64,000 nucleotides of DNA from contig NZ_SAIT01000003.1 in assembly GCF_004360145.1 (NCBI RefSeq), positions 310,001-374,000 of the forward strand, written 5' to 3'. The stretch is from Aliiroseovarius marinus. GTDB lineage: Bacteria > Pseudomonadota > Alphaproteobacteria > Rhodobacterales > Rhodobacteraceae. The position numbers were made by a program, and so were the translations under genes. Below, one piece after another: positions 3,792-48,730 of the stretch (position 1 is the stretch's first letter; each line of letters begins with the position of its first letter). The notes beneath the pieces were generated by a model that was not told where the DNA came from, did no database searches, and worked only from the letters and a program-made list of their open reading frames with translations.

Positions 3792-4235
3792 ATGAGCGAT
3801 ACTGACCTGATCAAGCTTTATTCCAAGCAGATCCTGTCCTTGGCAGCCGCGATCCCGCATCAGGCCCCGTTGGAGGCGCCACAGGGCGAGGCCAAAACCC
3901 GCTCGCCGCTGTGTGGATCGACCGTGACAGCAGCGCTGACACTCGACGGGGATCACATTTCGGACTACTCGCAAAACGTTAAAGCCTGCGCCCTAGGCCA
4001 GGCGTCCGCGTCGATCCTTGGAAAAGTCATCATCGGATTGGATCGCCCCACTTTGGAACGTGGCCGCGACGAACTCGCGGCGATGCTGAAAGACGCTGGC
4101 CCCGTCCCCACGGCCCCCTTCGATGGCTATGAAGTGCTGCAGCCCGCGCGTGAGTTTAAAAACCGCCACGCCTCGATCCTGTTGGCCTTCAATGCCGCCA
4201 TCGAGGCCTTCGACAACGCCAAAGCCAACGCATAA
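3792..4235 (+). CDS. NifU/IscU-like iron-sulfur cluster scaffold protein
   Basis: 147 residues. Residues 1-110 match the NifU N-terminal/IscU fold, with the cluster-ligand cysteine segments SPLCGSTVTA and VKACALGQAS. The third cysteine usual in IscU is not seen near the C-terminus, where NRHASILLAF stands instead. This protein belongs to an alphaproteobacterial variant often annotated as a scaffold. Its exact role (assembly or carrier) is not established here. It is divergent from hisI. Confidence 0.8.
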   Translation: MSDTDLIKLYSKQILSLAAAIPHQAPLEAPQGEAKTRSPLCGSTVTAALTLDGDHISDYSQNVKACALGQASASILGKVIIGLDRPTLERGRDELAAMLKDAGPVPTAPFDGYEVLQPAREFKNRHASILLAFNAAIEAFDNAKANA

Positions 4236-4268
4236 AAAAAACGCCGCGCTCCTGGCAGGGAGGCGGCG
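4234..4268 (-). terminator. Rho-independent terminator ending the small SOS-type gene transcript
   Basis: Read on the minus strand, arms CGCCGC and GCGGCG with inner CTCC/GGAG form about 10 paired bases, followed by eight T. It overlaps the stop of the plus-strand scaffold gene. It faces transcripts coming from the 40-residue membrane gene at 4437-4559. Confidence 0.75.
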
Positions 4269-4436
4269 GAAGTGATGCGGTTCAGGTCATCCAAATAGCG
4301 TCGGGAAGAGGCAAACATTCCGACAGGCAGGTGACGGGCGGTACTCCGTCGAAGGCATCGTGAAGGCTTCGGGACAGAAGGCTTCGTTGGGACATGATGC
4401 TGGATCAGACCATCCGCAGGCAGAAACTGGTTGGGA

Positions 4437-4559
4437 TCAGATCATCCCGGGCAGATGCAACGCACCCAAAAGCAGCACAAGCAAGGAAATCGCCCCAAGC
4501 GTGTCCGAGACAATCGTGGTCGAGGACCGGGACAATGCGATTTTGACATCGTTCAACAT
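4437..4559 (-). CDS. 40-residue single-span membrane protein, probably SOS-induced
   Basis: The sequence starts MLNDVKIALSRSS and ends GALHLPGMI. Residues about 20-36 are a hydrophobic membrane span. A GGAG ribosome binding site sits 7 bases before the ATG. It lies downstream of recG on the same strand, separated from it by a GAAC-N7-GAAC (LexA-type) box and an AT-rich leader, and ends at its own terminator at 4234-4268. No domain is recognisable. By size, topology and apparent SOS control it resembles the Caulobacter division inhibitor SidA (29 residues), but that is analogy and not homology. Confidence 0.65.
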   Translation of the reverse strand: MLNDVKIALSRSSTTIVSDTLGAISLLVLLLGALHLPGMI

Positions 4560-4649
4560 GGGGTTACTCCTGCTCTCTGTCTTCTGGGCAGTGTGTGTCA
4601 CTGCATCCGTGTTGCTATTTTGTTCGCATATCGAAGACCGTTCTGTAAA

Positions 4650-4684
4650 GAACTTTTTAAGAACATTTGTGAACTTTTGAGAAC
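4650..4684 (-). promoter_or_regulatory. LexA-type SOS box with extra GTTC repeats
   Basis: On the plus strand GAAC occurs at 4650, 4661, 4671 and 4681. The first pair is GAAC-N7-GAAC, equal to GTTC-N7-GTTC on the minus strand, the known LexA target in Rhodobacter and other Alphaproteobacteria. The other repeats are spaced by 6. The box is 90 bases upstream of the 40-residue membrane protein and directly behind the recG stop. Confidence 0.7.
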
Positions 4685-4691
4685 AAAAGCG

Positions 4692-6781
4692 CTAACCCAC
4701 TGAAATCAAACGGATCGCTTCGTCCTGTCGCATGAGCCACAGAAGAACACGGGCAGCGTGCCCCCGCGGCGAACTCAGATCCGGGTCCTGCTGAAGCAAC
4801 AAACGCGCGTCTTTTTGCGCCACGGCCATCAGTCCCGCTTGATGTTCCAAATCCGCGACCCAGAAGCGCGGCAGGCCGGATTGCGCCGTGCCCAGCACAT
4901 CCCCCGCCCCGCGCATTTCCAGATCTGCCTCGGAAATTACGAACCCGTCTTCGGTGTCTCGCATCACCGACAGACGTTTCTCACCGCCCTCGGTCAGCGG
5001 CGCTTGATACATCAACAAACAGGTCGAGGCCGCCTGCCCGCGCCCAACGCGTCCGCGCAACTGGTGCAGCTGCGCCAGTCCAAAATGCTCCGCCCGTTCA
5101 ATCACCATGATCGAGGCATTGGGCACGTCCACGCCCACCTCAATGACTGTGGTGGCCACCAGCAGCTTGGTCTTACCAGCCACGAAATCCGCCATCGCGG
5201 CGTCTTTCTCGGTGACTGCCATCTGACCGTGCACCATACCGACGACACCTTCACCCAAGGCGGCACGCAGATGTTTGAACCGTTCCTCGGCCGCGGTCAT
5301 GTCCATGACCTCGCTTTCCTCGACCAGCGGGCACACCCAATAGGCCTGCGCACCTTCGGCAATCGCGCTGCGCAGCCGTTCAACCACTTCCTCAAGCCGA
5401 CCAGTGTTGATCAGCACCGTTTTGATGGGTTTGCGGCCTGGAGGTTTCTCGTCCAGCACCGAGACATCCATGTCGCCATACTGCGCCAGCGCCAAGCTGC
5501 GCGGGATCGGCGTGGCGGTCATCACCAGCACATCCGACGCCGTGCCTTTCGCACCCAACTCCATCCGTTGGGCCACACCGAACCGGTGTTGTTCATCCAC
5601 GACGGCAAGACGAAGGTCCTGAAACTCCACATCTTTTTGGAACACCGCGTGGGTGCCGACCAGAATGTGGATATCACCAGCCTTGAGCGCCTCAAGCTTG
5701 CGCCGCCGTTCCGCGCCCTTGTCACGCCCCGTCAGGATCTCAACCACGACACCGGCTTCCTCGGCCAGTGGGCGCAACCCTTCCAAGTGCTGACGGGCCA
5801 GGATTTCTGTGGGGGCCATCATCACGCCCTGCCCGCCCGCTTCGACAGCGATCAGCAACGACAACAGCGCGACCAGCGTCTTGCCTGCGCCCACATCGCC
5901 TTGCAGCAAACGATTCATCCGGGTACCGGCCGCCATGTCGGCGGCGATCTCCTCGACCGCGCGGGATTGAGCGCCGGTGGGGGTATAGGGCAGCGCAGCC
6001 AGTACTTTGTCGCGCAGCGCGCCGGTGCCGATGCTGACCCGCCCTTTGCCGCGCCGCACGGTCGCGCGGGCCAATGCGAGCGTCAGTTGATGCGCGAAGA
6101 ACTCGTCATAGGCCAGCCGACGCCGCGCAGGGGATTGCGGAGACAGATCGTCCGGGCCTTCGGGTGTATGGGCCGCGCGTAACGCCTCGTGCCAGTCCGG
6201 CCAGTGCTCGCGCTCTTTCAAGGCGGGATCGACCCATTCCTGCAGCATCGGCAGACGGGTCAGAATATCGCCCACGCCCTTGATCACTGTTTTGCCAGTG
6301 ACACCCGCAGTCAGGCGATAAACCGGTTCGAAATCAGGGATCAGCCCGACCTCGCCCGGCGGCAGGATGAAATCTGGATGCACGATCTGCGCACGCCCGT
6401 CGAAGTGCTCAACCTTGCCCGAGATCACACGTTTCGCACCCACTGGTAGCTGCTGCTCAAGCCAGCGTGTATTGGCGTGGAAAAACACCAGCTCAAACGT
6501 CGTAAGAGGGTCCGAGACCTCGACCCGATAGGGCGCATTCTTCGACCGTCCGGGGCGATGCGGACCGACTTCAACCTCGACCGTGGCCATGTCGCCCGGC
6601 TGAACCTCGGTGACCGAGGCGCGGAATTTACGGTCGATCCCTGCATGGGGCAGCCAGAACAGCAGGTCGCGCGGCAGAGTTATCCCAAGCGTTTCCAGAG
6701 ACTTGGCAGTCTTCGGCCCGATCCCACCCAGCGTTTCCAGCTTGGCGAACAGAGGGAACAGGATTTCGGGCCGGGTGGACA

Positions 6782-6782
<1 letters not shown>
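4692..6782 (-). CDS. recG: ATP-dependent DNA helicase RecG
   Basis: 696 residues, the full family length. RecG regresses stalled replication forks and branch-migrates Holliday junctions. The N-terminal wedge/OB domain is followed by Walker A LLQGDVGAGKT near residue 290, the VVDEQHRFG motif II variant, VMTATPIPRSLAL motif III, and the LHQLRGRVGRG motif VI. It ends in the RecG C-terminal TRG-type segment. Its ATG overlaps the ligA stop by one base (TGATG), so ligA and recG are translationally coupled. Confidence 0.97.
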
Positions 6783-29992: not shown

Positions 29993-30481
29993 ATGTTCGT
30001 CCACACAGACCTTCCGCTTGTCACTCCGTTGACAGCACAGCAGTTGCAACGCGCGGGCGTGCCTGCGGGTTGGAATTTCGGACAAGCGGACCGCGTGCGT
30101 TTTCACGAGCTGGACGCATTGAACCATGTGAACAACATCGTCTATCTGCGCTGGTTCGAGGATCTGCGCATCCCCTATTTCCACGCCCACGCAATCACCA
30201 GCTATAACTCGAAAGACGATCCGCAGGTCGTGCTGGCCACCAACGCGGCCCGCTATTTCAAGCCGATGTTTCTGGGCGAAACCTTCGTCGTCACGGCGCG
30301 CTGTACCAGTTTCCGCAACAGCTCGTTCGTGCTGGAGTATGGAGTCTGGGTCGAGGGCGAATTGCGCTGCTCGGGCGAAACCGTGATTGTTACGCTGGAA
30401 CAAGACGGCAAGACCAAACGCCCGCTCAGCCCCGCGGTGATTGCCGCATTGACGGCAGATGGCGCCACTAAGGCCGGGTAA
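29993..30481 (+). CDS. Hotdog-fold acyl-CoA thioesterase
   Basis: 162 residues, 4-hydroxybenzoyl-CoA thioesterase/YbgC type. The family motif FHELDALNHVNNIVYLRWFEDLR near residue 34 includes the catalytic Asp position. The rest follows the beta-sheet pattern AARYFKPMFLGETFVVTARCTSF. It hydrolyses an acyl-CoA of unknown chain. The ATG at 29993 has GAGG five bases upstream and is better placed than the GTG at 29987. Its 3' end overlaps the convergent gene by 14 bases. Confidence 0.85.
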   Translation: MFVHTDLPLVTPLTAQQLQRAGVPAGWNFGQADRVRFHELDALNHVNNIVYLRWFEDLRIPYFHAHAITSYNSKDDPQVVLATNAARYFKPMFLGETFVVTARCTSFRNSSFVLEYGVWVEGELRCSGETVIVTLEQDGKTKRPLSPAVIAALTADGATKAG

Positions 30482-40949: not shown

Positions 40950-42035
40950 TTACTGGCTGTGCGACTTCAGGAATTCCAGGATCGCAGCGATGTCCTTGTC
41001 CTTCTTCAGACCCGCAAAGGACATTTTGGTGCCCTTCATGTATTTGCGCGGGTTAGCCAGATAGCCGGACAGTTCAGCCTCGTCCCAAACCAGACCACCT
41101 TCAGCAGCGGCCAGCATCGGTTTCGAGTACTTGAACCCGTCAACCGTACCCGCGGCGCGACCATAGACACCATTCAGGATCGGTCCGGTACCGTTCTTGG
41201 CTTTGTCGCCAACCTTGTGGCAGGCCTTACATTTCTTGAAGACCTTCTCGCCTTTGGCGACCAGTTCGGCATCCAGCGCCATCGCAGGCGCGGCTTCTTC
41301 GGCGGCAGGCGCTTCAGCTGCGGCCTCGGTGACTTCAGCTTCGGCTGGCGCGGCAGCGGCAGCAGCCGTCCCCATCACAGCCTGACTGATCGGCGTCGCA
41401 TCCGTGCCCGAGTTCGGATCGCCCGGGAAGACCACGGTGGTGGTAATCTCGACCGCGCCCGGTTTACAATCGCTCATGCAGCGGTTGGTGAATGTGCCGT
41501 ATTCGGTGTCCGCACGATCATCGACAATAAAGCCCTCAGCGTTCGGCAGTTCCACATCCAGGAAGGTCTCTTTCGACAGGACGAAATCGTCGTCGACCAA
41601 GTCGTTCGAGTAGAGGATATAAGCCACGATCGCATAGACATCGTCATCCGACAGCGTGCCCGCAGCGCCAAACGGCATTGAGCGGCGCACATAGTCGAAC
41701 GTGGTCGACAGGTAGGGCCAGTAGGAACCAACCGTCTTCAGCGGATCTTCATGGTCCAGCGTGTCCGCGCCACCGGCCAGTTTCGGCCAGTTGCCCGCGC
41801 CCTCGGCGAATTCACCGTGACAGACGGCGCACGCTTCCGCGAAGACTTCTTCACCGGTCCAGACATCGCCCTTACCCGCAGGCAGGTTCGATCCGTCGGG
41901 GAATACGTCCAAGTTCCACGCGGCGATTTCTGCCTCGGTCGCAGCGCGGCCAAGGCCCAGCTTTTCAGCCATCGCGGGGGCGGCGGTCAAAGCGGCAACA
42001 GACGCTGCCATCAGGAATTTAGGAAACTTCGACAT
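40950..42035 (-). CDS. soxD: Sulfur dehydrogenase cytochrome subunit SoxD
   Basis: 361 residues. A signal peptide is followed by a first heme domain (CAVCHG near residue 72), an Ala/Glu-rich linker, and a second cytochrome c domain (CKACHK near 275, then GPILNGVYGRAAGTVDGFKYS). SoxD passes on the electrons that SoxC takes from sulfane sulfur bound to SoxYZ. Its start overlaps the soxC stop by 17 bases, with GGGGAGG before the ATG. Confidence 0.94.
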   Translation of the reverse strand: MSKFPKFLMAASVAALTAAPAMAEKLGLGRAATEAEIAAWNLDVFPDGSNLPAGKGDVWTGEEVFAEACAVCHGEFAEGAGNWPKLAGGADTLDHEDPLKTVGSYWPYLSTTFDYVRRSMPFGAAGTLSDDDVYAIVAYILYSNDLVDDDFVLSKETFLDVELPNAEGFIVDDRADTEYGTFTNRCMSDCKPGAVEITTTVVFPGDPNSGTDATPISQAVMGTAAAAAAPAEAEVTEAAAEAPAAEEAAPAMALDAELVAKGEKVFKKCKACHKVGDKAKNGTGPILNGVYGRAAGTVDGFKYSKPMLAAAEGGLVWDEAELSGYLANPRKYMKGTKMSFAGLKKDKDIAAILEFLKSHSQ

Positions 42036-48325: not shown

Positions 48326-48730
48326 ATGCGGAAAGTTACATTAAGTTTGCTCTCTACTGCCCTGATTGGGTTTGGTTTTGCCGCACAGGCCGCCGAACTG
48401 ATCATGGTCGAAGAGCCCGGCTGCGCGTGGTGCGCCAAATGGGAAAGCGAGCTTGGCGACATCTATCCGAAAACCTCGGAAGGCAAATATGCACCGCTTC
48501 GCAAAGTGAAATTGCACGACCTGAAACGATCGGATGGCCCCGACGCGCTGGGGGTGATGCCAGCACGTCCGGTGGTCTTCACGCCCACTTTCCTGCTGAT
48601 CGAAGACGGCAAGGAGCTTGCCCGCCTTCAGGGCTATCCGGGCGAGGATTTCTTCTGGGGTCTCTTGGAGCAAATGCTGCTTGAGAACACGGATTACGTG
48701 ACGCCACCGGCGGAACAAAGCGGCAGCTAA
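48326..48730 (+). CDS. soxS: Periplasmic thioredoxin-like protein SoxS (SoxW-type alternative)
   Basis: 134 residues. Signal peptide ending near AAQAAE, then EEPGCAWCAKW with the active-site cysteines 33 and 36, a VVFTPTFLLIEDGKELARLQGYPG segment with the cis-proline. SoxS in Paracoccus has a similar PGC-x-x-C motif and reactivates SoxYZ. The position, divergent from soxV and ahead of soxR, fits SoxS better than SoxW, and no second thioredoxin gene is present in the cluster. Confidence 0.8.
   Translation: MRKVTLSLLSTALIGFGFAAQAAELIMVEEPGCAWCAKWESELGDIYPKTSEGKYAPLRKVKLHDLKRSDGPDALGVMPARPVVFTPTFLLIEDGKELARLQGYPGEDFFWGLLEQMLLENTDYVTPPAEQSGS

Follow-up and report, generated by a model that had tools for sequence, protein, structure and literature searches.

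The window analysed here is a 64,000-nucleotide stretch of Aliiroseovarius marinus DNA. On its minus strand, between recG and a convergent gene for a NifU-like protein, lie an array of GTTC repeats, a promoter, a 40-codon open reading frame (ORF) and a long 3′ part that ends in an intrinsic terminator (Table 1); Pfam identifies recG, ligA, hisI and the NifU-like protein as neighbours. The four half-sites of the array occupy 4684-4681, 4674-4671, 4664-4661 and 4653-4650 on the minus strand, with the final two separated by N7 and the other two steps by N6, and seven bases separate the recG stop from the array. The ORF runs from an ATG at 4559-4557 to a stop at 4439-4437, and about 170 bases lie between that stop and the strong terminator, a GC-rich hairpin with a T-run at about 4268-4234. 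Direct reading of the sequence bore out the initial annotation where it had described GTTC-N7-GTTC with two further GTTC copies on the minus strand, and a 40-codon gene with a ribosome binding site and its own terminator; the upstream gene, which it had taken for recG, is recG by Pfam.

Table 1 Features of the peptide locus, in positions of the window
Feature	Positions	Strand	Basis or remark
recG, upstream neighbour (context)	4692..6782	minus	Pfam
GTTC array, GTTC-N6-GTTC-N6-GTTC-N7-GTTC	4650..4684	minus	sequence read directly
LexA-type N7 pair, GTTC-N7-GTTC, abutting the -35	4650-4664	minus	
-35 element, TTTACA	4644..4649	minus	TTTACA in 86/110 promoters
Second N7 element, GAACAAAATAGCAAC (GAAC-N7-CAAC), proposed as the other operator of a LexA pair	4611..4625	minus	
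Ribosome binding site, GCAGGAG	4567..4573	minus	read in sequence (AGGAG about 4571-4567)
40-codon ORF, MLNDVKIALSRSSTTIVSDTLGAISLLVLLLGALHLPGMI, one hydrophobic helix	4437..4559	minus	
Structured 3′ RNA, conserved, with a long closing stem, hairpins inside it and repeats of unpaired CUG(C/U)C(C/U)	4237..4423	minus	
Intrinsic terminator, GCCGCCTCCCTGCCAGGAGCGCGGC with T-run, final hairpin of the RNA	4234..4268	minus	
NifU-like protein, convergent neighbour (context)	3792..4235	plus	PF01592, E 4.4e-5

The peptide and its spread in the Rhodobacteraceae

A first survey of 61 genomes found the peptide in 32: in every one of the 21 from the window's genus, in 11 of 16 from other genera of the family, and in none of the 24 that belong to other families of the class. 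With a profile built from 16 members, matches were obtained in 346 of 395 Rhodobacteraceae genomes, covering 295 of 329 genera, and the copy number in the matching genomes is nearly always one. Across a sample of the class, the profile matched 4 of 241 genomes, all four of them Rhodobacteraceae, and tblastn gave no match to the peptide in phage records. At least one genome missed by the profile (G021) has the gene all the same: its promoter is retained, and its ORF, diverged and 39 residues long, scores 0.013.

For comparison we assembled 110 loci: 29 from the first survey, including that of the window, 80 taken in descending order from the listed best part of the 346 profile matches, and G021; one further locus (L018), which is cut off, was left out. 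Because 20 of the 110 come from the window's genus, the set is uneven as a sample. The C-terminus of recG lies upstream of the peptide gene in all 110 (tblastn, E≤1e-3), and a sequence pattern recovers it in 78 loci in its strict form and in 109 in its loose form. The initial annotation had made its reading depend on homologues in related genomes, downstream of recG and with a conserved start and box. Such homologues are present in the family, as that reading requires, with recG and the ATG in 110 of 110 loci and the N7 box in 109. Taken together, these comparisons indicate that the peptide gene is a single-copy member of the Rhodobacteraceae core genome.

The ORF bears the marks of coding selection. 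Among 19 distinct ORFs of the window's genus, pN/pS is 0.33 and variable sites are distributed 27/12/34 over the three codon positions. All 110 loci have an ATG start and a length of 38-42 codons, and D19, G22 and L34 are invariant among the 97 members of 40 residues. AlphaFold2 predicts a single helix spanning residues 2-39 (mean pLDDT 87.9), and the best 19-residue Kyte-Doolittle mean of the window's peptide is 2.16; the helix and the score together bear out the single membrane span described at the outset. The residues ahead of the helix core have a small positive net charge (mean +0.56), and those after it a net charge of 0. The sequences thus describe a conserved peptide of 38-42 residues with one predicted hydrophobic helix.

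Neither the peptide nor the RNA has a convincing match in the family databases searched. Sixteen family members, searched at E≤1, had no hit in Pfam, NCBIfam or PADLOC, and a single one of them matched a single PHROGs family of unknown function (E 0.042). Rfam returned nothing for window positions 4200-4800 at E≤5, and in six relatives it gave two matches below the gathering threshold, both outside the RNA (L205 344-418 and L192 203-405). Searches of openly licensed papers yielded no account of the peptide or the RNA.

Promoter architecture and LexA-type sites

The arrangement in the window recurs across the 110 promoters. GTTC-N7-GTTC abuts the -35 element in 109 of them and GTTC-N7-GGTC does so in one; 101 promoters have a third GTTC at N6, and one has it at N7. 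TTTACA is present in 86, the remainder having variants, and we call it a -35 because its pattern of base variation resembles that of a -35: where the third base is G, the final three bases vary (TTGATC, TTGTCC, TTGCTT, TTGATT, TTGCAT and TTGACG). A -10 element could not be placed, nor a transcription start located. Downstream lies a second N7 element, a site of the opposite strand, which is GAAC-N7-CAAC in 103 loci, GAAC-N7-AAAC in three, GAAC-N7-TAAC in two, and GAAC-N7-GAAC and GTAC-N7-GAAC in one each. The spacing between the two N7 elements is 23 in 87 loci, 24 in 18, 22 in four and 21 in one. The A-rich spacers of the GTTC array are nearly fixed across genera. LexA alone fails to explain these conserved spacers and the copies at N6, and together they may form an UP element or the site of another factor.

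By raw count the box is unremarkable. A single GTTC-N7-GTTC is insignificant in the window (1 observed against 2.0 expected from shuffles), and the whole genome holds 123 against 90 of a reversed control pattern; it is the conservation in 109 of 110 orthologous promoters that lifts the box above chance. An exact scan for GTTCTNAAAAAGTTCTTTAC across the genome collection found at least 117 stretches. Among those listed, 112 are followed by a match to the peptide profile (E<0.01), two from Paracoccus have short ORFs with weak profile matches (0.061 and 0.031), two are truncated where the stored DNA ends, and one, from a Muribaculaceae metagenome-assembled genome, has no such ORF. In the Paracoccus loci L314 and L386, the promoter is retained and the ORF is shorter, without most of its N-terminal part, so that by sequence the promoter is more conserved there than the peptide. 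A search for the promoter core with at most three mismatches recovered 22 of 23 family genomes, the one missed being 56% complete (G010); outside the family it hit one genome, where the reversed control matches too. Four genomes have a second, weaker core site. One extra weak motif site (G000:C8:95151) coincides in part with the beginning of an ORF whose N-terminus is signal-like, and was taken for coding sequence. The window also holds three more near matches to GAACAAARNRGCAACA, each with two mismatches, on the plus strand at 30398-30413, 41985-42000 and 48713-48728, bringing near matches to 4 against 0.35 expected, a number reached by 0 of 100 shuffles.

A LexA DNA-binding domain was matched in 23 of 23 family genomes of the searched set. 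The recA and lexA promoters of the window's genus carry GAAC-N7-GAAC, and uvrA, identified by Pfam, has GTTCCTGTAATGTTC upstream; the peptide gene has a LexA-type site at its promoter, as do recA, lexA and uvrA of the same clade. We searched 394 genomes of the family for AAGTTCTT followed by GNAC-N7-GAAC and obtained 27 matches, each from a different genus, of which 26 were parsed (L414 was left out). In 17 of these the peptide lies downstream (profile E 6e-20 to 0.013), and all 17 have another GTTC, placed 11 bases ahead of the first; the nine other parsed matches have neither this upstream partner nor the peptide. The downstream site of the 17 genera is a perfect GAAC-N7-GAAC in 16 and GTAC-N7-GAAC in one (G222), a form that occurs, on the opposite strand, in recA promoters of the genus. 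In these genera, with a downstream site ending in GAAC and the upstream partner in place, the promoter is therefore flanked by two N7 sites.

Scored with a LexA matrix trained only on recA and lexA sites (41 distinct), all 110 peptide promoters exceed the 99th percentile of 900 background windows, though with a mean of 13.2 their sites fall short of the training sites, which have a mean of 22.8 and a lowest score of 13.5. Several further details count against LexA. In 107 of the 109 promoters read, A precedes the GTTC beside the -35, whereas 40 of the 41 distinct recA and lexA sites have T at that base (A after GAAC); the usual downstream site has CAAC rather than GAAC (103/110); and the third GTTC stands at N6 rather than N7 (101/110).

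Triple GTTC arrays number five in the window's genome against one in the control, and two of the five are the peptide array and one is that of lexA. The genes lexA, recA and uvrA appear among 20 regions chosen from 100 listed of the 123 GTTC-N7-GTTC sites, and many others apparently fall within coding sequence. One site, GTTCTGCAAATGTTC (L069, C2 near 106086), lies at the start of a gene assigned by Pfam to the radical-SAM family, a possible additional LexA target, and one triple GTTC match resembles a tRNA T-loop, GTTCAAATCCT (L062, C5 near 47242). The recA promoters of the window's genus (L088-L110) have two N7 elements of their own, GAAC-N7-GAAC and an imperfect GTTC-N7-GTAC/GTGC upstream. 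Comparison with recA, lexA and uvrA, the second operator and the matrix all lend support to the LexA-type reading of the box given at first, and we regard LexA control of the peptide gene as highly probable on these sequence grounds.

The 3′ part of the transcript

A terminator was detected in 105 of the 110 loci, at a median of 173 bases from the stop, and the intervening untranslated region (UTR) repeats short motifs. The 84 non-redundant UTRs that were counted contain 120 copies of CTGCCTG, where 3.3 would be expected, and 98 of CTGTCCC, where the expectation is 4.7. The combined motif CUG(C/U)C(C/U) amounts to 312 copies in 76 UTRs, about 4.1 per UTR, and its mean unpaired probability is 0.757, compared with 0.385 for all 6-mers and 0.444 for 6-mers of the same composition.

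Evidence for a conserved fold comes from tests with and without an alignment. An alignment-free duplex test covered the 76 of 85 non-redundant UTRs that remained after filtering. The closing stem binds its own partner there at -30.1 kcal/mol versus -22.5 for the partners of others, and the own partner ranks in the top tenth in 45 of the 76 UTRs. The median fold z-score is -2.9, with 58 of 76 below -2. When 28 UTRs were simply aligned with MAFFT, RNAalifold recovered the terminator only. In an alignment of 16 sequences, pairing in the closing stem and terminator reaches 95.7%, eight pairs are double-changed and 16 of 29 pairs never vary. Of five measures taken on it, four were matched by none of 500 shuffles, and the fifth, further pair types, by 126 of 500.

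A covariance model built from 16 similar sequences (R1) matches window positions 4237..4423 with 32.6 bits (E 3.2e-7) and the sense strand of 93 of 96 loci at E≤1e-3, of which 11 are training sequences. One locus matches at 0.0037 only (L224), two match partially (L258 and L192), and two have no match up to E 0.1 (L240 and L245); antisense matches are weaker and mostly of the terminator. A larger alignment of 129 rows was reduced to its best 91, with each source represented once and 11 training sequences among them. In these 91 rows all 16 pairs of the closing stem are double-changed, in an alignment that was fitted to the structure and so leans towards it; on the same structure-fitted rows, double-changed cells number 254 against a shuffled mean of 63.8 (maximum 89), and the terminator stem is 95.8% paired. 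Across 37 genomes, with at most 74 first-look candidates scored in each, the model found 22 of 23 family members and none of 14 others; 22 of its hits adjoin the peptide, and two additional, weaker ones (G001 and G005) are located away from it.

By these comparisons, the 3′ part of the transcript is a conserved, covarying RNA that displays CUG(C/U)C(C/U) and ends in the terminator, a new element for which any explanation of the locus has to account. The initial annotation, which these comparisons support in part, overlooked both the second operator and this structured RNA, and the RNA suggests another possible function for the locus. We think it somewhat more probable than not that the RNA has a regulatory role besides termination. 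The gene itself is real and family-wide, and is probably an SOS-controlled gene for a peptide plus an RNA, as judged from its sequence.

A possible division checkpoint and its alternatives

Two small division inhibitors of Caulobacter offer points of comparison. SidA, an SOS-induced inhibitor of 29 residues, sits in the inner membrane and binds FtsW (PMC4211646 and PMC9578287). It shares with our locus a tiny single-helix membrane protein and a LexA-type GTTC-N7-GTTC in an alphaproteobacterium (PMC4211646, PMC9578287 and PMC12700426). The peptide is thus of the SidA type in being a tiny single-span membrane protein under LexA-type control, the control being read from sequence; set beside the description of SidA, it differs in length (40 residues rather than 29), and its gene has two operators and the conserved structured 3′ RNA. 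DidA, too, is a small damage-induced division inhibitor with one membrane helix, of 71 residues (PMC4211646). It is SOS-independent, and the peptide promoter differs also in having, by eye, no DriD site.

We favour a model in which LexA, bound at both N7 sites, would keep a strong promoter shut. Upon DNA damage, RecA filaments would trigger LexA self-cleavage, and the message would be produced in a burst. The peptide would then enter the inner membrane with its N-terminus inside and restrain a late divisome protein until repair is finished, in the way that SidA acts on FtsW in Caulobacter. The 3′ RNA might set the stability or translation of its own message or, alternatively, its loops might act on other RNAs or on an RNA-binding protein. 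A SidA-like division block is suggested by size, topology and regulation; the profile matches in most genomes of the family, the nearly constant single copy, the place beside recG and the slightly positive charge ahead of the helix core also speak for a checkpoint. For the peptide's function alone we hold a division checkpoint to be about an even proposition. LexA control together with a division checkpoint is our leading reading, to which we give slightly less than even credence.

The alternatives differ in what they make of the promoter and of its product. A chance box before a constitutive gene would fit the raw counts, with about two GTTC-N7-GTTC expected per window of the same composition and the modest genomic excess over control, but the box is kept in 109 of 110 orthologous promoters and in 17 of 17 loci found by an independent pattern, and we consider this explanation extremely improbable. 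Another factor that recognizes GTTC direct repeats, such as an OmpR-type activator upstream of the -35, could control the gene for reasons unrelated to DNA damage. The repeats are in phase, with steps of 10, 10 and 11 bases immediately before the -35. The conserved spacers, the third copy at N6 and the unusual base before the final GTTC would all suit such a factor. The perfect LexA-type downstream site in 16 genera argues against it, as does the poor fit of candidate motifs: the TGA-N8-TGA motif of CenR (PMC9275681) misfits the promoter, as does the inverted repeat described for CenR of S. meliloti (PMC9561847), and the DriD motif ATACGAC-N7-GTCGTAT (PMC12340889) is absent from the promoter sequences by eye. 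This reading is therefore decidedly unlikely.

The products of the gene allow other roles. E. coli tisAB combines a LexA-controlled message, the tiny membrane peptide TisB and a long untranslated RNA, features that our locus has in common with it, the LexA control here being probable from sequence, and a TisB-like SOS toxin would depolarize the inner membrane and yield dormant cells. Type I toxins mostly show a patchy spread, whereas this peptide is near-universal in the family and nearly always single-copy, with conserved polar residues such as D19; this spread fits a checkpoint better than a toxin. The seven bases between recG and the GTTC array also leave no room there for a divergent antitoxin RNA like IstR, and we regard the toxin as quite unlikely. 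The RNA might instead be the main product, a damage-induced regulatory RNA with the peptide secondary. CsrB/RsmZ RNAs, and the CcsR RNAs of R. sphaeroides, carry several copies of one short unpaired motif, as the 3′ RNA does, although here the motif is CUG(C/U)C(C/U), a coding message carries the RNA as its 3′ part and Rfam has no match for it at E≤5. The excess of CTGCCTG and CTGTCCC, the mostly unpaired state of the motifs and the covariation of the closing stem favour an RNA whose repeated loops pair with messages or titrate an RNA-binding protein. Yet the ORF is likewise under coding selection and conserved in length, and no free copy of the RNA is evident beyond the two weaker extra hits in 37 genomes, at up to 74 candidates each; the RNA as main product seems unlikely to us.

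Besides the leading reading of a LexA-controlled checkpoint, a bifunctional SOS gene can be envisaged, in which one LexA-controlled transcript would give both a division-stopping peptide and a structured regulatory RNA, and the RNA would reprogramme messages, or remove an RNA-binding protein, through its several copies of the exposed loop motif, conserved across the family. We regard such a gene as less probable than not.

The Rhodobacteraceae include abundant marine bacteria and laboratory phototrophs. To our knowledge, neither a SidA or SulA of the family nor the way in which its members stop division after DNA breakage has been described. A 40-codon gene present in 295 of 329 genera, with LexA-type sites read at 110 loci, makes the question of division arrest testable. 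If its 3′ RNA acts on other RNAs, a family-wide SOS response would be tied to RNA regulation.
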